Assembly: GCF_009663685.2 (NCBI RefSeq)
Contig: NZ_RCOG02000002.1
Location: forward strand, 248,001 to 312,000
Origin: Cupriavidus sp. U2
GTDB taxonomy: Bacteria > Pseudomonadota > Gammaproteobacteria > Burkholderiales > Burkholderiaceae
Length of the DNA stretch: 64,000 bases
Direction of reading: 5' to 3'
The translations under genes and the position numbers were made by a program. The notes beneath the pieces were generated by a model. The model did not search any database, was not told the DNA's origin, and saw nothing but the letters and a program-made list of their open reading frames with translations. Shown here piece after piece: positions 39,568 through 64,000 of the stretch (position 1 is the stretch's first letter; each line of letters starts with the position of its first letter).

Positions 39568-42099
<2,532 letters not shown>

Positions 42100-42101
42100 T
42101 G

Positions 42102-42106
42102 GGTTG
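42102..42106. other. Predicted 5-bp target site duplication (GGTTG)
   Basis: Tn7-type insertions duplicate 5 bp of target. The five bases directly before the TGT terminus are GGTTG; the partner copy would lie past the right edge. This is a prediction from the family mechanism. Confidence 0.5.
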
Positions 42107-42160
42107 TGTAGATAGACACGTAAGCTGAGAAATTGGGACCCATAAGTTGAGAAATTTATG
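42107..42160 (+). repeat. Tn7-like transposon terminus with two TnsB-site-like repeats
   Basis: The terminus starts TGTAGATAGACAC (42107). Two repeats follow: TAAGCTGAGAAATT (42121-42134) and CATAAGTTGAGAAATT (42141-42156), in the same orientation and about 20 bases apart. The layout is very similar to ends of TnsABC elements that I remember, which start TGTTGATAC and carry repeats of CCCATAAATTGATAATT. By Tn7 analogy this is the target-proximal (right) end, which has its repeats pointing inward. Confidence 0.8.
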
Positions 42161-48392: not shown

Positions 48393-49462
48393 CAATGTAC
48401 GGGGAGTATATTTTGGATGGCTTTTCGTTGACAACGGCCGGGACGAACTTAGTGGTTGTTGCGCGGGAGGGCGAGCTGCCTGCTGGGAGGGAGGGCCTTG
48501 CTCGGCAGGCTTGTTGTGCGTGATTTGGATTCCATTATGGAATGCGTCCCCATCTCCTACGACGGTATTCCAGCAGTGAGTTGATTAGCTATGGATTTAG
48601 CAGATAGCCGTATATCGTGCTTTGAGCAAAAAGCACATGGGCGACGTGTTCGAATTCTGGCCACAGCTAAGGCGTGGAGCTGAGCAGGCGGAGGACGAAT
48701 CCGAAACGCGTTCCATCCGGCTTGAAAATCTTCCCAACGTTGACTACGGTAAACCGGCGTCGGTGCAATGCCGTCGTGCAGCACAGAGAATGGACCTGAA
48801 CTCGCCGATATGACCCGCTAACGCGGTCGAGCCCCCTTTTTATGAGAGGGTACGACGCGGGAGCGAGCGATGAAACAGGTCATCTGCAGTTCGCAGTCAG
48901 GTGTAGTTTGGGCGAAGGTGAGGGCGCGCATTTATGCCTTCGGTGGCTGGGTTCTCCATGCTGCAAGCCCTAGACAGCCAGGTGTCGCTTGTGAGCGACT
49001 GAGGCGGTCGGCCCGGGGCGCTGGATATTTCTTTCTCCCTCATCCCCAGGATTCAGGTCGTTGTTGCCAGCGCCCAGACTTTCCAGTCAGCAACGTCACC
49101 CGCCGTTCCCCCCAGCGTATTCTGGCCATCGGAAGCCACGATTTTTGGCGTCACGTCACGTCATCACTACACGGCGTAACGATGGCGTTACACGCGCGTA
49201 ACGCGAAAAAAAATCTCGGTAGAGGAAACTGCGTCGAATCAAGCGTTGTCTACGCCTTTGCGTGTAACGCCGGTCAACACCCCTCTATTTTTCGCGAAAA
49301 CACTTCCGTAAGCTATGCGGCTGATAGCCCTATTGACCGCATGATGAACAGGAACAGCATCCCAGATTTTCCGTACCGGCAGACCCTCACGGGCATGCTC
49401 ACGCGCAACGTGACACGCGGCCAGAGCGCTCTGTTTTGCCGAGCAGGCAATGGAGACGCGTC
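48393..49462. other. 1.07-kb region between cargo A and tnsA, with inverted-repeat cluster
   Basis: No convincing gene: the longest frame (48870-49466) has no domain-like pattern. A hairpin with a C/T-rich tail near 48811-48840 may be a terminator. The tnsA-proximal part holds repeats built on GGCGTTAC: GGCGTTACACG (49184-49194) and its exact inverse CGTGTAACGCC (49261-49271), with two partial copies at 49173-49180 and 49195-49205, plus the palindrome TTTTCGCGAAAA (49289-49300). These are likely the tns promoter/operator region or additional TnsB sites. Confidence 0.6.
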
Positions 49463-50236
49463 ATGAGCAAAGCGCCCCCTTCCTATGGCCGTCGTGGCCG
49501 TCAGAACGCAGCCAATACCGGCATCCGCCGTACAGCATCAACGTACGGCAAGGCGAAATTTGGCACGTACAGCGAGAAGGCGAGCGGTCACCTCAACGTC
49601 GAGTCCGATGCCGAACGATTCGTGTCCCATCTGCTGGAGATTGACCCACGTGTCAGGGCTTTTCAACCGCAACCATTCTGTGTCGACCTGATTGACCAGC
49701 GTCTGCTGTTCACGCGTCAAGCGATGGGGGAAGCCTGGCACAAGCACCGCAATGTCGCGGGCCCGAAGTTCTATACGGTGGACTTCAGGGTGGACTGGCA
49801 AGACGGACTGCATCACGCAGTCGAGGTCAAAGCTGAAGGCTTCGAGGGAGATGAGGTCTACTGGGAAAAGGTCGCGGATGCTCGTCCGATTCTGGCCGCC
49901 AACGGCTATCCTCTGCGCACTCTGGTCCTGCCTGCTAGCACCAGCCATCCCATTCGGATGAATTCTCGGGCGCTCAAGCAGGCGTCACACCAAGTCCGCG
50001 CCTATCGGACAGACGAGCTCGTCGACCGTGTCACACGCCGCTGTGGCGATGGCCCTGTCTCGGTGCGCGCACTATGCGAGGACCTGCAAATTTTGCCTGG
50101 GTTGATACCGGTCTTGCTCGTCAGCGGCGTCCTTGGCGGCGACCTTACCCATCGTTCCATCTGCGGCACGCTGGAATTGTCCTTGGCGTATGGTGACCTC
50201 GGCCACCTCTGTCTGCTTGAAGGGGTTGAGCAATGA
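49463..50236 (+). CDS. tnsA: TnsA-type heteromeric transposase endonuclease subunit
   Basis: The 257-residue protein starts at the ATG at 49463 with GGAGA 6 bases upstream. It has the TnsA nuclease arrangement: Glu51 in VESDAERFVSHLL, Asp107 in YTVDFRVDW and E121-V-K123 in AVEVKAEG, matching the restriction-endonuclease-like active site (E, D, Q/E-x-K) of Tn7 TnsA. TnsA cuts the 5' strands at the ends, giving cut-and-paste transposition. A C-terminal helical domain should contact TnsC. It is coupled to tnsB by ATGA. Confidence 0.93.
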   Translation: MSKAPPSYGRRGRQNAANTGIRRTASTYGKAKFGTYSEKASGHLNVESDAERFVSHLLEIDPRVRAFQPQPFCVDLIDQRLLFTRQAMGEAWHKHRNVAGPKFYTVDFRVDWQDGLHHAVEVKAEGFEGDEVYWEKVADARPILAANGYPLRTLVLPASTSHPIRMNSRALKQASHQVRAYRTDELVDRVTRRCGDGPVSVRALCEDLQILPGLIPVLLVSGVLGGDLTHRSICGTLELSLAYGDLGHLCLLEGVEQ

Positions 50237-52254
50237 TTCGCTCCCTCCTCGCTCGCGACCGACTCGCCCCTCCTGGGAACCACGACGCCTACCTGGAGGT
50301 ACTCGACCCCCACCCGCGCAGTGGATGCATCAAGGTATTTGATGCCAGTAAGCGCGAGGACAGGTACATGGAGATGGCAAGCATTCTTGCGGACCTTCAC
50401 GCAGGAAAACTTGCCGTGCTTCGCAAGGGCAAACCTCTTTTCAGCCATGCAGCGCAACCAGACGACAAGGCGCTTCACGAGCGGAGCACATTCGTTCGAG
50501 AGGCTATCTTGCGCGTCCGGGACATGCAGAAACGGCAACGTGTGAGTTTTCGCCAGGCGTACCGTCTCGCGGCGGAAGAGTATAGGCAGGAGGCCTTGCC
50601 TGACGCGCGGCCATTTCCACCACAATCGACCATGTATCGGTACCGGAAGTGCGACATGGCTGGCCTTCCGGTTTTGCGTGGGGATAGGAACAAGGGCAAT
50701 CGCCTCCCACGCTATCCGCGGGAAGTCGTCAACATCATTCGCTCGGTCGCCGAGCAGCATTTCCTGGTTCCACACTCCCGCTGGTCACTCAAGAGGGTCA
50801 CCGCAGAGGTAAATCGCTCGGTGTTGGGAACGCTTCTCCCCGCAACATCCCGTCCGGTAAGCGCCAGGTACGTGAACAACACTATCCTGAACGTTGTCAG
50901 CGCCGACCCCGAACTTGAGCGGATGCTTCCCACAGACGCAGTAGCCGCGAAGTCCCTTGCGAAGAAGCGCATTCGCGCTGAAGCGCCATTCGAGCGCGTC
51001 GAACAGGATGCGCTGCATTTGCCATTTGAGGTCGATACACCGAGCGGCATCAGCAGTCAGGTCTGGCTCGTCCACGCCATCGACTGCTGTACAAGCTATC
51101 CCCTCGGCTGGCAATTGGTTGTGGGAGCTCCCACCGATACCGACTCTCTCGCATGCGCGGAGATGTATATGGCTCCCCTCAAAAAGAAGCGCTTCGAGGA
51201 GCTAGGCATCGACCACGACATGAACGTGTGTGGCACGCCGGGACAGCTCGTTTTTGATAACGGCGCCGAAGCCAAAGGCGGCCGCATCCAGAATCTAGAG
51301 CGACTCGGCGTTGACGTTAAGCACTGTAGAGCCCGTGCCGGCCAGGAGAAGCCATTTGTCGAGCGTTTCAACCGCTCGCTCAAGGAGGCTCTGGAAGGGC
51401 TCGCGGGTTGCACACGTGTAGACGGCAAAGATGGGCAGCGCGACCCCATTGCGCTAGGCGACCAACTTCCGACACTGGAGGAGCTGCAGCGCTGGATTGT
51501 CCGTTGGTACTACGAAAAGTGGATTCACACCCCGCTTGAGCGTTTGCAATGGGACGTGGTCCTCACGGATTCGCTTAAGGGGAACACCCCAGCCGAGCGC
51601 TGGAAGCATTTCGAGGAGTCGTGCTTCGCAATCTCCCTTCCACCATCACGTGCCGAGTGGCTAGCAGCGCTTTACGAGCACAAGGAGCGCAGCGTGAGCC
51701 GAAAGACAGGCATCACCATAGACGGCCTGCACTACAAGAGCGATGACATTGAGGCTCTGATAAATAAGTATGGTGAACAGAGGCAGCTTCGTGTGTTGTT
51801 CAACCCGGACGATTTTCGGCATGTTCATGTCTACGAGGGCGATGACTTCCCACTCGTCACGCTGCCGCACGAGCACCTGAGACCCGAGACGCCAGCGTGG
51901 TCGTTCGCCGAAGCGAAGGAGCGGCTCAAGAGCCAGAAGGCCAGCGCAAAACCAGCGCCTCAAGCAGAAAAATTCGACCGCGACTTGCATGAGCAGGTCG
52001 TCGCGGACTCGCTTGCCCCGAAGCGCAGAAAGCAGAGCAAGCATGAGCGAAACCGTGAAACCGCACGTCGGGAGAAGGAGCAGCAAGCCGTAGTGCGCGC
52101 ATCAAGGAACCCGAGTCCACGGGCGCCCTCGCAGACGTGCAGGCCCAACAAAGCTTCGGAAGAAGCGCCTATCGTCGCGCAATCTAATAGCTCGATATTT
52201 GATGATGCGGGCCTGCTCCCGGTCCTGGACCGAGCCAATGGTGTTGAGATATGA
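50233..52254 (+). CDS. tnsB: TnsB-type DDE transposase
   Basis: The 673-residue integrase-fold transposase makes the 3' cuts and strand transfer. Catalytic residues read as Asp259 (EQDALHLPF), Asp342 (VFDNGAE) and Glu377 (PFVERFNR), giving D-D-35-E spacing. N-terminal helical DNA-binding domains recognise the end repeats; the C-terminal tail is Arg/Lys/Glu-rich, then acidic, as expected for TnsC contact. It overlaps tnsA and tnsC by ATGA. All catalytic residues are present, so it should be active. Confidence 0.95.
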   Translation: MIRSLLARDRLAPPGNHDAYLEVLDPHPRSGCIKVFDASKREDRYMEMASILADLHAGKLAVLRKGKPLFSHAAQPDDKALHERSTFVREAILRVRDMQKRQRVSFRQAYRLAAEEYRQEALPDARPFPPQSTMYRYRKCDMAGLPVLRGDRNKGNRLPRYPREVVNIIRSVAEQHFLVPHSRWSLKRVTAEVNRSVLGTLLPATSRPVSARYVNNTILNVVSADPELERMLPTDAVAAKSLAKKRIRAEAPFERVEQDALHLPFEVDTPSGISSQVWLVHAIDCCTSYPLGWQLVVGAPTDTDSLACAEMYMAPLKKKRFEELGIDHDMNVCGTPGQLVFDNGAEAKGGRIQNLERLGVDVKHCRARAGQEKPFVERFNRSLKEALEGLAGCTRVDGKDGQRDPIALGDQLPTLEELQRWIVRWYYEKWIHTPLERLQWDVVLTDSLKGNTPAERWKHFEESCFAISLPPSRAEWLAALYEHKERSVSRKTGITIDGLHYKSDDIEALINKYGEQRQLRVLFNPDDFRHVHVYEGDDFPLVTLPHEHLRPETPAWSFAEAKERLKSQKASAKPAPQAEKFDRDLHEQVVADSLAPKRRKQSKHERNRETARREKEQQAVVRASRNPSPRAPSQTCRPNKASEEAPIVAQSNSSIFDDAGLLPVLDRANGVEI

Positions 52255-53234
52255 CAGCCGCGAAGCAACTACGTGTAGCGATTGAAAGCTGCGAGCTTCC
52301 TCATCCGCTGTTCCTTCAGCAGTTCAACCCGCTCAAGCAGCGCATTGCGGATGCATTGGACGGAGCCGCAAGCCGCATTGAGCGCGTGATGGGGCCATCG
52401 CGCGCCGGTAAGTCGATGCTAATCAATGCGCTCAAGCGCACATTCCCGGAAACTAAGATTAATGGGCGTCGCCATGTGCCAGTCCTAGTGGTGCCGGTGC
52501 CGTCGCCGGTGTCACCACTGCTGCTGCCCTCGAGCGTGCTCGACGCACTTGGCTTACCTGTGCAAGGCAGTACCACATCCCGCACCATCGGACCACGCAT
52601 GCTGAAGCAACTGGAGCTTACTGGTACGCGTGCCGTGCTTTTTGAGGAAGCCAGTCACCTGGTTGAACTGGGCGCGCGCGTGCCACAGCGCTCGGCCGGC
52701 GACTGGTTCAAGACCCTGGCAGATTCGCACAACCTGACGCTGTTTCTATTCGGCGTGCCGCGTCTCCAGCGTTTGTTCGACAGCAATGAGCAATTGCGCC
52801 TACGGTCGTCGGCCGCCCGCTATTTCTTGCCTTACGACTCCCGTATTCCAGAGAACATGAAAGCATTTCATACCTGCGTGGCGACCTATGCGAATCTTTT
52901 TCGCGAATCCGGCTATCCGATTGACCTACCGGCGCCAGCGCTCACGTTCCAGTGCTACCTCCTGACTGGGGGGCTGATTGGCGTGTTGAGTCGGTTCATG
53001 CAGGAGCTGGCCAGTCAGCTAGCGTATGAGGCACCGCGTACCGTGACCTTCGCGGACTGTCAGGCAGCGGCGAATGCAATCGAGGCCGGAGGTTCTCGTC
53101 ACTTCCGAGCGTTTGGGTCTGCCGAAGCTTTGCAAGCCGACGTCGCCCCCGCAGCCCTTCATCAAGCCTTTGTTCAGGTGATGAATGACAATGACATTGC
53201 GGTTCCTGTTCTGCATGAGGGAGGCGCCCAATGA
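52251..53234 (+). CDS. tnsC: TnsC-type AAA+ regulator (TniB family)
   Basis: The 327-residue AAA+ ATPase has Walker A GPSRAGKS (residues 48-55, Lys54) and Walker B AVLFEEASHL (Glu132/Glu133). The short length fits the TniB/CAST group better than the 555-residue Tn7 TnsC. It assembles on DNA and bridges the target selector (TniQ/TnsD) and the TnsAB transposase. It is coupled to both neighbours by ATGA overlaps. Confidence 0.92.
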   Translation: MTAAKQLRVAIESCELPHPLFLQQFNPLKQRIADALDGAASRIERVMGPSRAGKSMLINALKRTFPETKINGRRHVPVLVVPVPSPVSPLLLPSSVLDALGLPVQGSTTSRTIGPRMLKQLELTGTRAVLFEEASHLVELGARVPQRSAGDWFKTLADSHNLTLFLFGVPRLQRLFDSNEQLRLRSSAARYFLPYDSRIPENMKAFHTCVATYANLFRESGYPIDLPAPALTFQCYLLTGGLIGVLSRFMQELASQLAYEAPRTVTFADCQAAANAIEAGGSRHFRAFGSAEALQADVAPAALHQAFVQVMNDNDIAVPVLHEGGAQ

Positions 53235-55090
53235 GTCTCGTCGTAACTTGTGCGCCTCGGGACGACGAATCGGGATTCGGCTACTACCGAGCGCTTGCCG
53301 CAGCAAACGTACTATCCGGCTGGCGGGAATTGGCCGGACTCGCCGGCGTGCAGCGCAATCGCGGTGCGCTGTTCGCACACTCGGAGTTTGTGGCTGGACA
53401 GCTTGGTCTCGAAAGTGAGTGGGCGCACTTTGCAGGGCAGCAGGAAGCAGTCTGCAGGAGCTGGGGTCGGCTACATCGCGTACAAACTGACGCCGTCTGC
53501 CCTGCCTGTCTGGCTGCTGCTGAATACATGCGCCACTACTGGGGGCACGCCTATGTGACCACGTGTGCCGACCATCGAATCTTGCTCATCGACAGATGCA
53601 GTGACTGTGGAGCATTTCTATCGCCTAATCGCTATCACATTGGCCAATGCGACTGTGGTCAAGACCTCCGCATGCTTCCTCGCATTGCCTCAACTCGCGC
53701 TCAGCACTGGCTTTCTACACTTATTGCGAGTGCTGGTAAGCAGTCGGGCGGCGTCGAGCCCATGCTGCGCAGCGTGGATATCAACGCTCTGTGCCAGGTT
53801 GTCCGGACACTTTGTCTGCATGCCGACCCGACAATGCCAGCTCCCCGTCGAGGAGCTGCGTTGCCGACGTCCATCGCTGAAGCTATCGATTTGCTCGCAC
53901 CTCTCGACAGTCTGCTCGGTGACTGGCCTGCGGGATTCCAGTCGCATGTCGAGAAGCGCATTGCCGCAGGCAAGCCCGATGCACGAACCCTAAACACATT
54001 GCTCGGCTCTTGGTATATCGGACTGCGGAAGCTTTGCCAAGGCACGGCACTTGAGCCATTCCTCAAAATCGTCATCGAAGTCGCGGCAGTCCAATTTGAC
54101 GGAGCACTCGGTTTGGATTCGGCCAAAGCCTTGGCCGAGGACGTGACCGAGTACATGCGACTGGCTGAGGCCGCAAAAGCCATCGGTGTCAGTGTTTCCA
54201 ATATGCACGACGCCGTCCAGGCTGGAAAGTGCAGCTACCGCACGCGTCGCGCAGGTACTCTTGGGCTCCTATACGAACTCCCACGGGCGGAGGTCGCGCG
54301 CATCCAGGAGCAGCGCAGTGAATGGATGACGGGCCCAGACGCCTGCGAGTTGGCAGGTGTGTCGCCGTCAGTGCTTGAGCACATGATGGCAGCTGGTGTG
54401 ATTCGGTCCGACGTGAAATGGCGCCACGACATCCTCAAGGGAGGCGTGGTTGAGCGCCGGTCCATTCTGGAACTCGTCGAGCGAATCCGGGAGGCGGCAG
54501 ACCCTGTCGGGCCCCCGGAAGACGAGAGAGTCGTGTGGGCGGGGCTGACCAGTCGACGCATGGGTGACCGGCAGGCCATCCAGTCCCTGATGCAGGCAAT
54601 CGCTGAAGGCAAGGTGAAGGCTGTCGTGCGCGGTCGCAAGCTCGGGGACATGGCATTCCTACGGGCCGATGTTGCATCGTACTTCGGCACGCCGTTGCTC
54701 GAAGCCGGCATGTCGATTCAACAACTGTCGAAGGTCACTGGTTGGAAATGGGAAAGCATCTCACACTGGATTGCCGCGGGGCTGCTGGATTCGCACTCCA
54801 TTGTGCTGCGAGGCCAGCCGTGCCGAGTCGTGCTTCCTCATCAGTTGTTGGCGTTCCGTCAAACCTATGTCCCCCTTGCAGATTTGGCGCGCGGCATGGG
54901 CACCAAGTCGTCTGCTTTGTCGCGATTGCTCTCGGGGATTGAGCTGGTTGGTGCGCAGCAGTTACCAAGTGGAGGCGCTCGTGGCGGGCTGATTCGCATC
55001 GCAGAATTGGGCCGGCTCGCAGTTCTGGGTGCAAGGGCCGGACATGACCTGTTCGTATCCGCATCGCCGGTGCAATGGACGGGCGCGTGA
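53231..55090 (+). CDS. tnsD: TniQ-family target selector (TnsD-like)
   Basis: The 619-residue protein has the N-terminal TniQ domain: zinc motif C90-x2-C93, W104, C112-x2-H115 and C123-x2-C126 (CPACL ... HYWGH ... CADH ... CSDCG). The C-terminal half holds repeated helix-turn-helix-like segments (LAEAAKAIGVSVSNMHDAVQAG, LSKVTGWKWESISHWIAAG), as expected of a sequence-specific DNA-binding selector. Its size is TnsD-like, longer than the roughly 400 residues of CAST TniQ proteins. Insertion directly beyond gyrB suggests it recognises the gyrB 3' end. Confidence 0.88.
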   Translation: MSLVVTCAPRDDESGFGYYRALAAANVLSGWRELAGLAGVQRNRGALFAHSEFVAGQLGLESEWAHFAGQQEAVCRSWGRLHRVQTDAVCPACLAAAEYMRHYWGHAYVTTCADHRILLIDRCSDCGAFLSPNRYHIGQCDCGQDLRMLPRIASTRAQHWLSTLIASAGKQSGGVEPMLRSVDINALCQVVRTLCLHADPTMPAPRRGAALPTSIAEAIDLLAPLDSLLGDWPAGFQSHVEKRIAAGKPDARTLNTLLGSWYIGLRKLCQGTALEPFLKIVIEVAAVQFDGALGLDSAKALAEDVTEYMRLAEAAKAIGVSVSNMHDAVQAGKCSYRTRRAGTLGLLYELPRAEVARIQEQRSEWMTGPDACELAGVSPSVLEHMMAAGVIRSDVKWRHDILKGGVVERRSILELVERIREAADPVGPPEDERVVWAGLTSRRMGDRQAIQSLMQAIAEGKVKAVVRGRKLGDMAFLRADVASYFGTPLLEAGMSIQQLSKVTGWKWESISHWIAAGLLDSHSIVLRGQPCRVVLPHQLLAFRQTYVPLADLARGMGTKSSALSRLLSGIELVGAQQLPSGGARGGLIRIAELGRLAVLGARAGHDLFVSASPVQWTGA

Positions 55091-56301: not shown

Positions 56302-57069
56302 TGCGTAATCCGGGAGACGTCAATCGGCAAGGAGTCGGCCGCCCAGCACATGGGGGAGGCAGGGCGCTTACCGGCATATCGATGTTCGATGATTGTCGTA
56401 ATCGTGGCTTTCCTCAGGCGTAGGCCAAACTGGACGATGTTCCGTATTTCTCTCGCTTACCTATTTGGCTCAGCCAAAAAGCAGGTGAACACCTTCGTCG
56501 CTTACCTACGGGTGGTGAGGCTGAGCCTAGCCCTCCCTGGCAAGTTTGCCCGGGATGCGCCTTCACTCAGCCGCCACCCAAACCACTACGGTATGGAGCC
56601 GGCCTCGCCCGACAGACTTTCGCCTCGCGCCTCTATCTTCGCCAGCGCGTCGAGCTTCTCAAGGCATCCCCCCAGTGCTCGATTTCCCTCGCGCCCTGGC
56701 GGTTGAAACCCCGTCTGCGCAAGCGGCAATTACGACATCACCGAAGCCCGTCATCCGTGACGGGGCGGCCCTCACCACCCGGCGGCGTTGCGCGCGGCGG
56801 ATGGCATGTACGTCCCTGCATGTGAGTATATGTACGGTCGGTGAGCATGAAACTGCTTCTGCAAAGTGTTCAAGCGCAGTCGACATTACAGCGTCCATTG
56901 TCAGTGACTGAGCTAGGGCGCGCCAGCCAGATATCGCGCATGTGGGGTGGTTGATTCGGACGGTCGATGAGCCGAGCGGGATGGGGAGAGGTCTAGACAA
57001 CTATGAAGCGAGTGTCGCCACTCACGGCAATCGCAGGAAGGAGCCTGGCGCGCGGGCAAAAGGAGCACG
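56302..57069. other. 768-bp gene-poor region with short repeats
   Basis: Short frames on both strands do not look like proteins. It contains two direct copies of TCGCTTACCTA (56453-56463, 56498-56508) flanking the palindrome TTGGCTCAGCCAA (56465-56477). That palindrome recurs at 58657-58669. Confidence 0.55.
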
Positions 57070-58752: not shown

Positions 58753-59271
58753 ATGGACAAAGATGCTTTCGACAGGTCTCTGCAGGTGCTCTACCTCGAT
58801 TTCGACGGCGTCCTCCACCCTGACTCTGTTTTTCGAACGAGGAACGGTATTGAGCTGCTTCATTATCCAGGGCGCAGCTTGTTCGAGCACGTGCCTTTGC
58901 TCGATGATGCATTGAAGCCATATCCCGAAGTGAGGATAGTTCTGTCTACCTCGTGGCAGCTCATCGAAGGCGGCTACGAGGGCGCAAAATCGAGGCTTTC
59001 CGCAGGTCTGCAGGCGCGGTGCATAGGTGGGACTTATAACCGCCGCGTCAATCGCAAGACTTGGTTCGAAGGTATGTCGCGTCCCGAGCAGGTCGTTTTG
59101 GACGTCAAAAGGAGACAGCCTGAGAAGTGGATTGCCGTCGATGACTGGCCTGGCGAGTGGCCTACATGGGCTTCGCAGAACGTTGTGCGGGCTGACCCCG
59201 TGCTTGGCATTGCCGACGTCACGGTTTTTGAGGACCTGAAAACGAAGTTGGAGTGCGAGTTCGGCTTCTGA
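58753..59271 (+). CDS. HAD-domain protein (RNA-repair-associated HAD type)
   Basis: The 172-residue protein has the HAD nucleophile motif YLDFDGVLHPD (Asp16/Asp18), motif II VLSTSW and a final acidic motif WIAVDDWP. This compact form without a cap matches the HAD domain named for Swiss-army-knife RNA-repair proteins, often found in defence islands as a stand-alone phosphatase. Possible role: removal of end phosphates from nucleic acid or a small nucleotide. Divergent from the hypothetical gene on its left. Confidence 0.82.
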   Translation: MDKDAFDRSLQVLYLDFDGVLHPDSVFRTRNGIELLHYPGRSLFEHVPLLDDALKPYPEVRIVLSTSWQLIEGGYEGAKSRLSAGLQARCIGGTYNRRVNRKTWFEGMSRPEQVVLDVKRRQPEKWIAVDDWPGEWPTWASQNVVRADPVLGIADVTVFEDLKTKLECEFGF

Positions 59272-59441: not shown

Positions 59442-59771
59442 CTAAAGTGACGGCGGTTTTGGACGCCGCGCAATTGCTTCAATACGCTCCTCTAGCGACA
59501 GTTTCCGAGTCGGTAGTGGCAGCGGAAACAGTAAGAACAGGTTGCGGGTGTGACCAAGGGCTTTGAGCGCCCGCAGAAACGTCTCCAAGGTTCCCTGCCC
59601 GTGCGTCTCAAATCGCTTGTAGGTTCTCAGCGCGATACCCGCGGCGACCGCAAATTCTGCCTGAGAGAGTCCCGCCTTCTTTCTCTCGCGTCTTACTCTC
59701 ATGGCGAGATATCCACAGAGGCCTGTTTCATCCAGGGTCTGAAGTAACGCAAATTCTTGTTCTGGCGTCAT
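59442..59771 (-). CDS. XRE family transcriptional regulator
   Basis: 109 residues from the ATG at 59771. The Cro/C1-type helix-turn-helix is clear (MRVRRERKKAGLSQAEFAVAAGIALRTYKRFETHGQGTLETFLRALKALG). The frame extends upstream across the divergent promoter region, but those residues are not protein-like. It is divergent from the large gene at 59943 and most likely represses it and itself through the inverted repeat at 59781-59805. HTH proteins of this type often guard the expression of toxic defence loci. Confidence 0.88.
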   Translation of the reverse strand: MTPEQEFALLQTLDETGLCGYLAMRVRRERKKAGLSQAEFAVAAGIALRTYKRFETHGQGTLETFLRALKALGHTRNLFLLFPLPLPTRKLSLEERIEAIARRPKPPSL

Positions 59772-59780
59772 GATTGACCA

Positions 59781-59805
59781 TTTTAGGCCAAATCTGGCAC
59801 CAAAA
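59781..59805. promoter_or_regulatory. Imperfect inverted repeat, candidate XRE operator
   Basis: Arms TTTTAGGCCA and TGGCACCAAAA flank a short AT-rich centre. It lies 10 bases before the XRE start and about 140 bases before the large gene. A possible promoter for the large gene (TTGCCT at 59827, TATATT at 59852) has a long 19-base spacer. Confidence 0.5.
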
Positions 59806-59942
59806 TTGTGGATAGTTTGTGAGTTGTTGCCTCGAAACAAAAGCCTGTTGTTATATTGGGAGCACTTAACCCTGAAACCACCCCCCAGATAGGTCGTCTG
59901 GTCGGGTGAAGTGGCGTAGCTAGCCAATAAAGGAGCCGACCA

Positions 59943-62900
59943 ATGACATCCTCGCGCCCGCAAGGCGGCTCGAGCGTTTCCGCTCGTGACCGGTCCCCCT
60001 CCCTTCAACTGGCAAAAGTTGCAGACCTGCTTGCCCGAAGTATTCGTGATAGCAAGGCAGCGTCTACCTCTTCTATTGTTCATCTCGATGGCCCGCGCAT
60101 TCGGGTTAATACCCGTGCGGTGCTCCAGCCGTTCTTGAATAGCGACTTCAAAAATGCTTTTACGCCCGGTCTTGAGACAGGATTCGTGCGGGACATGGAA
60201 ATGCCTCCATTCGGCTCGACGGCGCGCGTCGGTGGCCGACTGCTTGATGGTTCGGCCGCCGCTACCTCAAAGGCAATTACCTCTCTGCACGAGGCAATTT
60301 CTAGTGAGTTAGACGCAGCGTTGGCCGCCGCGAACCTGAGTGAATTGACGGTCTCATCCATGGAGCAGCTGCTTGGGACATTGGCTGCCTCAATCAGCGA
60401 GCGTATGCCGGACCTTCCGGCATCAGCCAGCATGGTGCCGGTTGCCTTCGGTCAGCCTGGGCGGAACGCGGACGAACGCGGCCAAGATTTAGCGCGCGTG
60501 CTGTCAGCAATTGAAACTGTGGATGGCAAAGACTGGCTTGATGCGCTTCTGAATGGCATTGCGACGCGATTGCGCAACAACGACGTCGAGCCAGAAGAAA
60601 TCGACGACATCCTGGTTGCCATCCGAACGCAACGCAGCCAGCCTGGGAGTCAAATAGCGCGGTTCCTGGATTTCCTCGACGATGAAGCGCTGTCGAGGGT
60701 GCGACTTCAGGTAACTATGCGACTGATGGAGGCGGTTGCCGCGCAATCAACCAAAGAGGGCTTGAAGGCTTATGTAAGCCGTACTGTCACATGCTTCAAT
60801 GCATTTGCCGGCATCGACGGCAGTGCGCTCACCCTTGACATTAGTGCACTGTACGGCCAGCACAACTGCCCTCAGTTTCATGAACACCTGCGCACGGTTG
60901 GCTTCTACAGTTGCCTTCCCGCATGGCCGGAGTGGTCGGTACAACTTTTCGAAGGGCGCGCTGACGCTTCACAAGGCTTCAAGACTAAACGCGAAGTTTC
61001 GTATTGCTTCCGCGTTAACGGCACCAATCCACAAACCGGGAAGGCTGCGTTCGATTCGCGACTCGATAACATTTACGCGCGCGTACTGGACGAGCCGAAT
61101 GCCGACATCAACGTTAAATGGAAAGTGGCGGAATTGGTGTTCCTCTGGCTTGTTGTTCCCGACTCGCTCACGAATCCTTCTTCTTTGGATGTGGTTCAAG
61201 CAGCGGCGGATGTTGCTGCTGGATTGAAACGAAATCCGTTGGGTACCTTGCGCAAATTGCACGCGGACCTGATGGAACGATGCAAGGCAATGGATGATGT
61301 TGCCACCGAAATGGTGGAGGTCTTGAAGACTAAGTCGACCAACCTCATCCAGTTTGCCGGCCGTAGTGCCGACAAATTTACTGTTGCTGTGTCGCGAAGC
61401 ATCGTGAACTGGGAAGCTGTGGAATCGATGTCGTCTTCGTCGACCGACATTCTGGTTAGCCGAGAGCGCGGCTCCGACTCCGTTGAGTGGTTCAACCATT
61501 TGACCGTGGCAGACAGTGCCATGGTGCCAGGCAGCATTGCATCGTACTGCGTTGAGATTGCGCTGCAGGAGCGCTCGCTGACTGCGGCGGGTCGTGCTGT
61601 GGAAGTTCAATTGCGGCGTGAGCTTCAGCATCCGGTCCTTCCAATTAGGTATCTGCCGTACACGCGAAACAACGCCGGCGAATGGGTGCCACATAGTGTC
61701 GATACGCGTGTGATGGATGCCGGTGTGGGAGTCGACATCGAATACTCTCTCAAGTATCTGCAACTTTCTCGAACGAAAGACGATGAAAAGGCAGCTTCCG
61801 AGCAGCTACGTGCGGCGACAGTAACTGCATTCGCGCTGTTTGTGTACATCACGCTCTGGGAGCTGTCGCGTCGCGTTCGAACTGCGACAGGCGCAGCCCT
61901 GTCGATGACGATGGTGCGGCTCCAGCATACCGGCAAACAAAACAGCCGTGAGGCCGACGCGCACGATGCCAACACGGTGGTGTTTGCGATTAGCCAGGCA
62001 ATAGAAAAGGCGTTGACGCGGGAAATGCCGGTCAAGCTTCAAGGACTTACGACTCAAACCAAGGACCAGAACGAAAGCCTGCGCTGGAAGCGACGGGGTG
62101 CGCTCAATGCTCTGCTCGGCGGACAACCGCTTAACTTTCGGATGGAGGGGTTACTCGATAAGGTTGCATTGGTGACCTATGTAACGCGCCCATGTGATAC
62201 GCACCCCTCGTTTCCTGATGCAGATGGATTCCTCTTCCAAAGTCGCACCTATCGTGCCGTGCGCGAGAACGGAGTAGCTACTCTTAGAGTGCATTCGATG
62301 CAGTCACGCCTCGTCGAGAGCCGGAAGGATTTTCAGGCACCGCAGCTTATCCTCGAGGAAATCGCGAGGCTTGAGAAAGACGGCTTCGAGCACATAATGC
62401 TGCTGTCTCATCATTTCGGTAACCGGCATATCGGCCGCGCAGCGGAACGACACGCCCCGCATGGCACGCTGCAGTTCCTAGATGAGGCAGGGAAGCGCTT
62501 TCCCGGGGTTCATGTCTATCCATTGCGACGAGATGTCTTTAAGGCAACAAGGCTGCGAAAGCGTGGAACAATGGAAAGTGGCTTTGAGGTCGTCAATTTT
62601 GCAGACCATCAAGCCATGTACGACCAGTTCGAGGGTAGCGACCTTCGCACTCTTATGCCGATTTACACCTTCGCGACGCTTGTGGTCGTCGGTGAAGAAT
62701 CAAGACCGCAGTCTGGTTTCTGCACATACTTTTTTGACGCGGAACAGCGACTTAGCAACATCGAGCTGAAAGAGACAGTTCGTCAGAATATTTTGGGCAT
62801 CGGGAAAGGGGAAGCCCAGAACACACGAGCCTCTCTTATTAGCGTGCTTCGCGCCATTCATTTCATGGAAAGCGAGAAGCCTGCTTTCAAGACCCAACTG

Positions 62901-63059
62901 CTGCCTGTGCTGGACCCGTTTGACTGGGCGAGTCCCACACGCACCTCAGCAGCGGGCGAAGTTGAAATCATGACCCGCCGAGGGTCTCGCTCCGTTTTGC
63001 TGTCTGTGCCAGCGGTACTGGCGCACGTCACCAAAGTTCTGCACAAGGATGCGGAATGA
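59943..63059 (+). CDS. Large protein of unknown family (1038 residues), candidate defence protein
   Basis: 1038 residues with an AAAGGAG site 5-7 bases before the ATG. I do not recognise the family. There is no P-loop, no signal peptide and no clear TM. The N-terminus (SLQLAKVADLLARSIRDS) is helical; the middle mixes helical and beta segments; residues about 700-1038 look like an alpha/beta domain (FEHIMLLSHHFGNRHIGRAAERHAPHGTLQFLDEAGKRFPGVHVYPL, TFATLVVVGEES), possibly nuclease-like. The stop overlaps the start of the next gene in ATGA, so the two products are probably made together. An XRE gene is divergent. The context (transposon cargo, regulator, coupled partner) suggests defence. Confidence 0.8.
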   Translation: MTSSRPQGGSSVSARDRSPSLQLAKVADLLARSIRDSKAASTSSIVHLDGPRIRVNTRAVLQPFLNSDFKNAFTPGLETGFVRDMEMPPFGSTARVGGRLLDGSAAATSKAITSLHEAISSELDAALAAANLSELTVSSMEQLLGTLAASISERMPDLPASASMVPVAFGQPGRNADERGQDLARVLSAIETVDGKDWLDALLNGIATRLRNNDVEPEEIDDILVAIRTQRSQPGSQIARFLDFLDDEALSRVRLQVTMRLMEAVAAQSTKEGLKAYVSRTVTCFNAFAGIDGSALTLDISALYGQHNCPQFHEHLRTVGFYSCLPAWPEWSVQLFEGRADASQGFKTKREVSYCFRVNGTNPQTGKAAFDSRLDNIYARVLDEPNADINVKWKVAELVFLWLVVPDSLTNPSSLDVVQAAADVAAGLKRNPLGTLRKLHADLMERCKAMDDVATEMVEVLKTKSTNLIQFAGRSADKFTVAVSRSIVNWEAVESMSSSSTDILVSRERGSDSVEWFNHLTVADSAMVPGSIASYCVEIALQERSLTAAGRAVEVQLRRELQHPVLPIRYLPYTRNNAGEWVPHSVDTRVMDAGVGVDIEYSLKYLQLSRTKDDEKAASEQLRAATVTAFALFVYITLWELSRRVRTATGAALSMTMVRLQHTGKQNSREADAHDANTVVFAISQAIEKALTREMPVKLQGLTTQTKDQNESLRWKRRGALNALLGGQPLNFRMEGLLDKVALVTYVTRPCDTHPSFPDADGFLFQSRTYRAVRENGVATLRVHSMQSRLVESRKDFQAPQLILEEIARLEKDGFEHIMLLSHHFGNRHIGRAAERHAPHGTLQFLDEAGKRFPGVHVYPLRRDVFKATRLRKRGTMESGFEVVNFADHQAMYDQFEGSDLRTLMPIYTFATLVVVGEESRPQSGFCTYFFDAEQRLSNIELKETVRQNILGIGKGEAQNTRASLISVLRAIHFMESEKPAFKTQLLPVLDPFDWASPTRTSAAGEVEIMTRRGSRSVLLSVPAVLAHVTKVLHKDAE

Positions 63060-64000
63060 GTGAGTTCACTTCGACATTGCCTTTTCAGAAGCAGGCTGAA
63101 CTGTGGGGGCAGGCGTATGAAATTCTGGTCAAGCGTGGGGTGCTCGCATGCCTGCTTGAGCGCAAGTTGCTAAGCGATGGGCATCCGGCACTTCAGCCTT
63201 GGCGTGAGATACGTCTGACCAAGGTTTCTGCGACTCTCGCAAAGCACCTCGACGTTATCGACGAGAACGCACGTGAACTCATCAAAGCGGCCGTCGACCA
63301 TATCGCATTGACAGCTTACGGGGTCGGCTATACGGCCATGCGCGAGTATCTCAAGCACGTCGGGAAGCCGGTAACAAACGGGAAACTCAAGGTGCGCGCG
63401 CTATGGTGTCCGTTGACGTTGCCAGGAGAGTCGACGGCGGCGCCTGAAATGCGCCAGGAGGCGCGGGAACAACTCCATGCGGAACTAGGGCTACTCGGGC
63501 CGGTCGACCCAGCTTTATCAGCAAAGGGGCAGCCGGCAAATGCCGACTTCATGCTTTGGCTATCGGGCACTCATCGGGAAGACTATCTGCTAGTGCAGGA
63601 GTACTCGTTTGACATGCCCGGCGATATAGGGGACTTTCGGCACCAGCAGGCCCACCTTGACGAACTACTACGGTATCGGCGGTTGGTCGACTCGCGCAGC
63701 GTGTTCGCCCGGGTGGCAGCAGAGATTGATGGCGAAGCGTTCGATATTTCGGACGACATCCGCCAGCACCTGACCGCCTTGACGAGCGAGAACAAGCCTT
63801 TCTTCAAGCTTTGCCAGGCCTGCGGTTATGGCGAATCCACTGCAGGCTTCCTGACCCGTGCGGGCCTACTGAAAAAGCCCGCTATTGTTCGAGCGCTTGC
63901 CATCACTCCGAATGGGCTGGAGAGTCTCGCAGCGCGATTTGACGATGAAGGACCAAAAGAACCTCGGCGTAGGTTGATGGAGCAGATGGGCGAAGCCTAC
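63056..64000 (+). CDS. Partner protein of the 1038-residue gene, 3' truncated by the window
   Basis: The frame starts at the ATG overlapping the upstream stop (ATGA) and is open to the last base: 315 codons without a stop. It reads SEFTSTLPFQKQAELWGQAYEILVKRG ... ALWCPLTLPGE ... ANADFMLWLSGTHREDYLLVQEYSFDMPGD ... FFKLCQACGYGESTAGFLTRAGLLKKP. The D-x-n-L-V-Q-E-Y block could be the core of a PD-(D/E)XK-like nuclease, but the Lys is not in the usual place, so I do not claim it. It probably continues as a longer protein, perhaps with a helicase or nuclease domain. Confidence 0.75.
   Translation, partial: MSEFTSTLPFQKQAELWGQAYEILVKRGVLACLLERKLLSDGHPALQPWREIRLTKVSATLAKHLDVIDENARELIKAAVDHIALTAYGVGYTAMREYLKHVGKPVTNGKLKVRALWCPLTLPGESTAAPEMRQEAREQLHAELGLLGPVDPALSAKGQPANADFMLWLSGTHREDYLLVQEYSFDMPGDIGDFRHQQAHLDELLRYRRLVDSRSVFARVAAEIDGEAFDISDDIRQHLTALTSENKPFFKLCQACGYGESTAGFLTRAGLLKKPAIVRALAITPNGLESLAARFDDEGPKEPRRRLMEQMGEAY

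Follow-up and report, generated by a model that had tools for sequence, protein, structure and literature searches.

What kind of system is encoded by a small XRE regulator gene that stands back to back with two coupled, large genes of no recognised family? The question is raised by the end of a 64,000-nucleotide stretch of DNA (the window, positions 248001-312000 of one contig of a 6.45 Mb genome), where an earlier note had seen a candidate defence locus. Our analysis points to a two-gene module of an Argonaute-like protein (A) and a helicase (B), located in a Tn7-like element and probably serving defence. The genes are laid out as follows:

59442-59771, minus strand: XRE-family regulator, 109 residues with the likely start (Pfam HTH_31/HTH_3; start of the copy in genome G055)
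59772-59942, no strand: divergent XRE/A intergenic region of 171 bp, presumed regulatory
59943-63059, plus strand: gene A, Argonaute-like protein of 1038 residues (reading frame, predicted fold)
63056 onwards, plus strand: gene B, SF2 helicase of 1289 residues, the first 315 of them in the window, to 64000 (reading frame, helicase motifs)

The XRE gene and the divergent 1038-residue protein described in the earlier note are real reading frames, with the start of the former corrected. An alternative XRE frame of 213 residues begins at an ATG at 60083 and overlaps A; because this ATG lies inside A and 59771 matches the start of the G055 copy, 59771 is the likely start. The regulator matches HTH_31 (4.9e-06) and HTH_3 (3.2e-05), both barely over the cut-off. 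A and B share an ATGA overlap (B start 63056, A end 63059), and the coupled partner of at least 315 residues that had been proposed is confirmed: its frame is open at the window end and, read on in the same contig, closes at window-equivalent 66925 (L002:4056-7925). The helicase that had been sought beyond 64,000 is B itself. Repression of the divergent A-B operon is the probable role of the XRE protein. A candidate operator over the promoter region, also claimed earlier, had to be rejected, as the XRE/A gap holds neither an inverted repeat nor a detectable sigma-70-like promoter and shows a single 16-nt imperfect direct repeat. Of the earlier defence reading, the idea of a locus of defence type within a Tn7-like element fits the findings and stands, and the operator falls.

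The Tn7-like setting was borne out by empty sites in two relatives (G053 and G041), which lack everything from 42107 to about 69907. The element and its transposition genes are:

42107 to window-equivalent 69907 (right end past the window), no strand: Tn7-like element carrying XRE-A-B (empty sites, TGT...ACA ends, GGTTG)
49436-55090, plus strand: transposition genes, namely TnsA-like (weak), Mu-type transposase, TniB and TniQ (profile matches)

The element is about 27.8 kb long. Its ends, TGTAGATAGACAC... on the left and ...CTGTCTACA on the right, are of the TGT...ACA type, and the 5-bp target duplication GGTTG is found on both flanks. Matches to TnsA and TniQ remained under cut-off, that to TniQ only just. 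Given the empty sites, the ends, the GGTTG repeat and the Tns/Tni genes inside, XRE-A-B is cargo of this element. Insertion took place a few bases past the gyrB stop codon (42099-42107), a gene not mentioned in the excerpts of two surveys of Tn7-like elements (PMC8649781, PMC10293859). Further cargo comprises genes matching a type II methyltransferase and an Orf5/HEC-06 protein as well as an Mrr-type restriction endonuclease. Within the element the module is also flanked by a HAD_SAK_2 gene of the Swiss Army Knife RNA repair type (58753-59271, plus strand) and by a cREC_REC (cyclic-phosphate receiver) gene (L002:9127-9579, plus strand). An Rfam search for an RNA partner at gathering threshold over 42000-64000 returned a single small RNA, Betaproteobacteria-1 (56607-56725, minus strand, 81.3 bits), which belongs to the element cargo and lies away from A-B.

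A second copy of the genes in G055 indicates what moves. Compared with 119 kb around the window, the sole matching DNA in that genome is XRE+A+B (59420-66931; 84.7 and 85.5 % identity), and the shared DNA stops 6 bp past B. Host genes of the gyrB region are 84-87 % identical to those of G055, so that XRE-A-B at about 85 % is not higher. Its neighbours in G055 are genes matching HmaA, HmaB, HmaC and dCTPase; these Hma/dCTPase-like surroundings extend over L092:4493-15957 and L093:4304-7707. On the opposite side are a VWA gene and a gene whose protein weakly resembles PD-T4-6. Since G055 shares XRE+A+B alone, the mobile unit seems to be XRE-A-B without the Mrr-type gene. That gene (Mrr_cat 3.5e-30) lies 366 bp downstream of B on the same strand in the window, and one could imagine a larger functional unit in which A, B and the Mrr-type nuclease act together. 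We consider this very improbable: besides the end of the shared DNA just past B, a relative of Mrr was detected in no more than 4 of the compared loci, at unlike positions. Mrr was not counted as core, as no third gene recurs across lineages in the loci compared.

The earlier note had been unable to place either large protein, and neither Pfam, NCBIfam and PADLOC nor profile comparisons place them in a known pathway or named system. For A, neither Pfam (its Piwi and PAZ families included) nor PADLOC gave a row at E<=1, and NCBIfam gave one chance-level row (0.086); for B, PADLOC and NCBIfam returned nothing and the Pfam matches to AAA_16 and Helicase_C (0.0012 for the latter) were weak and under cut-off. 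The A-B pair is not described in the published titles and abstract openings searched. Near-full-length homologues outside the window were collected for both proteins (64 rows for A, 63 for B), of which 59 entered alignment A3 and 53 alignment A4, respectively.

The fold of A was more telling. An AlphaFold2 model built from 60 aligned rows reached a pLDDT of 87.1 and a pTM of 0.88. When compared with the PDB using Foldseek, all 24 matches with E<=0.001 were Argonaute-family chains, 22 of them by title; the two remaining chains, from 4kpy, which ranked first (1.6e-07), we take to be Argonaute-family as well. These alignments have 8-12 % identity, and TM-scores are low (best row 0.20 by query, 0.28 by target); hexokinases rank after the Argonautes with probabilities of at most 0.38. 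VIA-align gave a similar picture, with 47 of 50 rows titled Argonaute, PIWI or SPARTA and the others being Med13, 4kpy and a protein-DNA complex. The A. fulgidus Argonaute, which consists of MID and PIWI, was aligned with model residues 554-1027 (Z 10.4, 316 residues, rmsd 4.8), and the best row was Med13 (Z 10.5, 357 residues, rmsd 6.2). A is therefore predicted to adopt an Argonaute fold in which a MID-PIWI (RNase H-like) module makes up the C-terminal half; this would account for the alpha/beta nuclease-like C-terminus suspected earlier. Two parts of A are of interest here:

61602-63044, plus strand: MID-PIWI-like part of A, approximately residues 554-1034 (extent from the VIA-align comparison with the A. 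fulgidus Argonaute)
61983-62093, plus strand: MID-like signature of A, residues 681-717 (Y/F681, Q685, Q700-G701, R717; 60-row alignment A3)

The candidate signature, which was read from the rows of A3 and may correspond to the Y, K, Q and K residues that bind the 5' end in Argonaute MID domains, consists of Y681 (56/60), Q/H/K685 (58/60), Q700 and G701 (60/60 each) and K/R717 (48/60), and its residues fall on a helix, a strand and a helix of the model. A pocket of this kind may bind a guide, and that A-B uses guides is a tentative reading, somewhat short of probable. It competes with a somewhat unlikely alternative in which A is a guide-free Argonaute fold that senses DNA structure or a protein, A-B being restriction-like or abortive. 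Such a role would suit the first rank of Med13, an Argonaute fold that is not known to bind guides and whose guide-binding surface has diverged (PMC12477606), as well as the variation at positions 681, 685 and 717; at the first and last of these, where Y and K are commoner, the A of the window itself has F681 and R717. On the other hand, Q700-G701 is invariant in all 60 rows, and signature residues and secondary-structure elements follow one another in the order of a MID pocket. At the positions expected for the aspartates of the PIWI catalytic DEDX residues, aligned by eye to known motifs, Y746 (57/60) and H824 (H in 31 and A in 22 of 60 rows) are found. The usual aspartates thus look replaced, and the PIWI domain of A is probably without cutting residues of its own.

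By its motifs, B is an SF2 helicase. All 54 rows agree on the key residues of the Walker A, DE..GD, DAS and Q..YRGRG motifs and 51-53 rows on other helicase-motif residues, and a PDB profile search matched DEAD-box proteins to the C-terminal RecA lobe (4.9e-06). For the N-terminus, where a PD-(D/E)XK-like patch had been pointed out, the fold was taken from the homologue L012 (435 residues, 62 % identity in the best segment; pLDDT 85.8, pTM 0.75). The residues concerned are:

63545-63601, plus strand: acidic residues D164 to E182 of B, candidates for a PD-(D/E)XK-like site (alignment, homologue fold)

Foldseek found no match for the L012 N-terminus at E<=0.001. In VIA-align, the top two rows were Argonaute-associated Cas4-family proteins (Z 6.4 and 6.3), followed by MGME1, Cas4, RecE and BsmI interleaved with unrelated proteins such as carbonic anhydrases, all with Z below 8. 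D164 is conserved in 54/54 and E182 in 52/54 rows; in place of the motif lysine, S184 is found in 53/54 rows, while K247 and K251 are invariant elsewhere. Taken together, the VIA-align rows and the conservation of D164 and E182 weakly suggest a PD-(D/E)XK-like domain, in line with the patch seen before, and B may accordingly possess nuclease activity.

To follow the pair across bacteria, 84,980 species genomes were scanned with the alignment of B. This pattern-limited scan found relatives of B in 242 stretches, a spread that has yet to be reflected in Pfam, NCBIfam or PADLOC, and the best 80 of the 242 stretches were kept as 77 loci. By title, 35 of these are cyanobacterial and 39 from Pseudomonadota, with one bin each labelled planctomycete, Propionibacterium and Chlorobiaceae; the set also contains near-duplicates (L014/L015; L017-L019) and metagenome bins whose names are doubtful. 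Together with seven plasmid loci, 84 B loci were compared. Gene A precedes B in 78 of them, at a distance of at most 103 nt in 76 and of 698 and 1209 nt in the other two. Of the six loci without A upstream, two are contigs starting within B and two hold B fragments; the remaining two (L068, L074) have a full-length B with no A detected, and B may act alone or with another partner there. The frequency of the upstream A and the limitation of the G055 match to XRE+A+B argue that the coupling is not due to chance. In Acetobacter persici (L006:12076-16058), the annotation divides the homologue of B between two overlapping genes, a split or broken frame. An XRE-like divergent gene accompanies the module in the window, in six beta-proteobacterial loci and in G055. 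In a scan of ten upstream ORFs, for which the L020 frame differed from the one resembling XRE and L025 was left out, four, each from one of those six loci, matched an HTH family. A quick tree of B keeps Cyanobacteria and Pseudomonadota mostly separate, places Allochromatium and others in a mainly beta-proteobacterial group and contains several long branches of unsure position.

This distribution also bears on the question of whether A-B is an immune system at all. Nine cyanobacterial loci have the same downstream genes, as would be seen for a long-settled chromosomal gene, which counts against an immune role. It is what one would expect if A-B had a housekeeping function in DNA repair or replication and were at times taken up by mobile elements, and a role of this type has a parallel in Pseudomonas stutzeri, where cell division is affected when a PIWI-RE gene is lost (PMC10991935). 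We nevertheless regard it as improbable. B is present in only 3/60 genomes of the genus, and copies are found on plasmids, in the Tn7-like element and beside the Hma-like genes of G055; the first of these points, the Tn7-like cargo and the Hma-/dCTPase-like neighbours likewise speak for mobility. Among 72,556 plasmid records, four contain relatives of A and 11 relatives of B. No relative of A was found in 50,697 phage records, and a pattern-limited scan of viral contigs gave one relative. Also counted against the reading favored below are the low TM-scores and best Med13 row for A, F681 and R717, the weak nuclease fold, the absence of A at L068 and L074, and an identity to G055 not above that of host genes.

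On balance, we favor an immune role, and XRE-A-B would then be a self-contained, mobile two-protein module. The MID pocket of A would hold a nucleic acid end, probably that of a short guide, and foreign DNA would be recognized in this way; A would then recruit or unleash B, which would track along the DNA and degrade it via its N-terminal PD-(D/E)XK-like nuclease. By analogy with ApsAB, the target would most likely be a plasmid or other invading DNA. Plasmids are put first because ApsAB of E. coli removes plasmids and showed no activity against eight phages (PMC11096173). With two genes, a regulator and a set of invariant residues, A-B lends itself directly to testing. If A does bind guides, Argonaute immunity would reach wider, and A-B would be a second case of a non-cutting Argonaute that works through a separate helicase-nuclease.

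Among known systems, ApsAB is the closest in design. Both are two-gene operons that combine an Argonaute-like protein carrying a Y..QG..K MID-like motif with a helicase bearing a PD-(D/E)XK-type domain, which is weakly predicted in B. For ApsB, the motif is given as Y[X]3K[X]nQG[X]nK, and a K413A mutant is inactive (PMC11096173). Differences exist at several levels. The helicase gene apsA precedes apsB, whereas A precedes B in 78/78 loci holding both; the nuclease is C-terminal in ApsA (D...DVK) and predicted to be N-terminal in B; the helicase motifs of the two proteins are unlike; and ApsB is reported to lack a typical PIWI domain (PMC11096173), while A has a predicted PIWI-like fold. Using the published motif, ApsAB-type pairs were recovered from two genomes of the window's class (L168:1806-8767 and L169:3814-10759), with motif positions a few residues from those printed and a gene order that is the reverse of A-B. 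Comparison by hhalign gave 0.32 % for A against ApsB and 1.1 % for B against ApsA, the latter confined to the Walker A stretch, both with two-row profiles, and membership of ApsAB is rejected at this level. ApsB was found in 0/40 A-B genomes in a search run without a positive control. The profiles of ApsA and ApsB themselves found no PDB chain, so that a missing DdmD match to B is uninformative, and the VIA-align lists for A and the B N-terminus contain no row titled DdmD, DdmE, ApsA or ApsB, which excludes nothing (8xih carries no telling title). ApsAB-like systems are mentioned in beta-proteobacteria and cyanobacteria in the same paper (PMC11096173) and may overlap with the A-B loci. By this analogy A-B probably works like ApsAB, and we think it fairly likely that A is an Argonaute-like sensor, perhaps guide-bound, by which a helicase-nuclease is turned on invading DNA.

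The pPIWI-RE/DinG/REase triad likewise joins a divergent PIWI protein, an SF2 helicase and a restriction-type nuclease, in the order REase-DinG-PIWI (PMC3702460), whereas A-B has only two genes. Membership is rejected here too: A yields no PF13032 row at E<=1, its HMM matched no ORF in 20 pPIWI-RE loci, and hhalign gave 0.4 % (13 rows). A weak hhalign stretch spans an R-rich strand, a candidate counterpart of the family's conserved R and E. B has no DinG-family match in Pfam, and pPIWI-RE genes occur in 10/34 cyanobacterial genomes with B. DdmDE, a plasmid defence system named in PMC11096173, resembles A-B by description, as an Argonaute-like protein with a helicase-nuclease. Compared with solved Argonaute and PIWI proteins, A shares the predicted fold of the MID-PIWI-like part and differs in escaping the Pfam Piwi and PAZ profiles and in apparently lacking the catalytic aspartates. 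Med13 of the Mediator kinase module, structurally the best VIA-align row, is a eukaryotic transcription regulator and is not known to have a helicase partner of the kind of B. A-B could represent a new lineage of guided bacterial immunity. In it, an Argonaute branch that loads short guides, does not cut and has neither a Pfam Piwi match nor a sequence relationship to pPIWI-RE or ApsB detected in these comparisons would pass DNA targets on to a helicase that has co-evolved with it and bears a Cas4-like nuclease at its N-terminus, a proposal that we consider plausible rather than probable. If true, A-B would join ApsAB, DdmDE and pPIWI-RE/DinG as another, independently assembled combination of an Argonaute fold and a helicase-nuclease.
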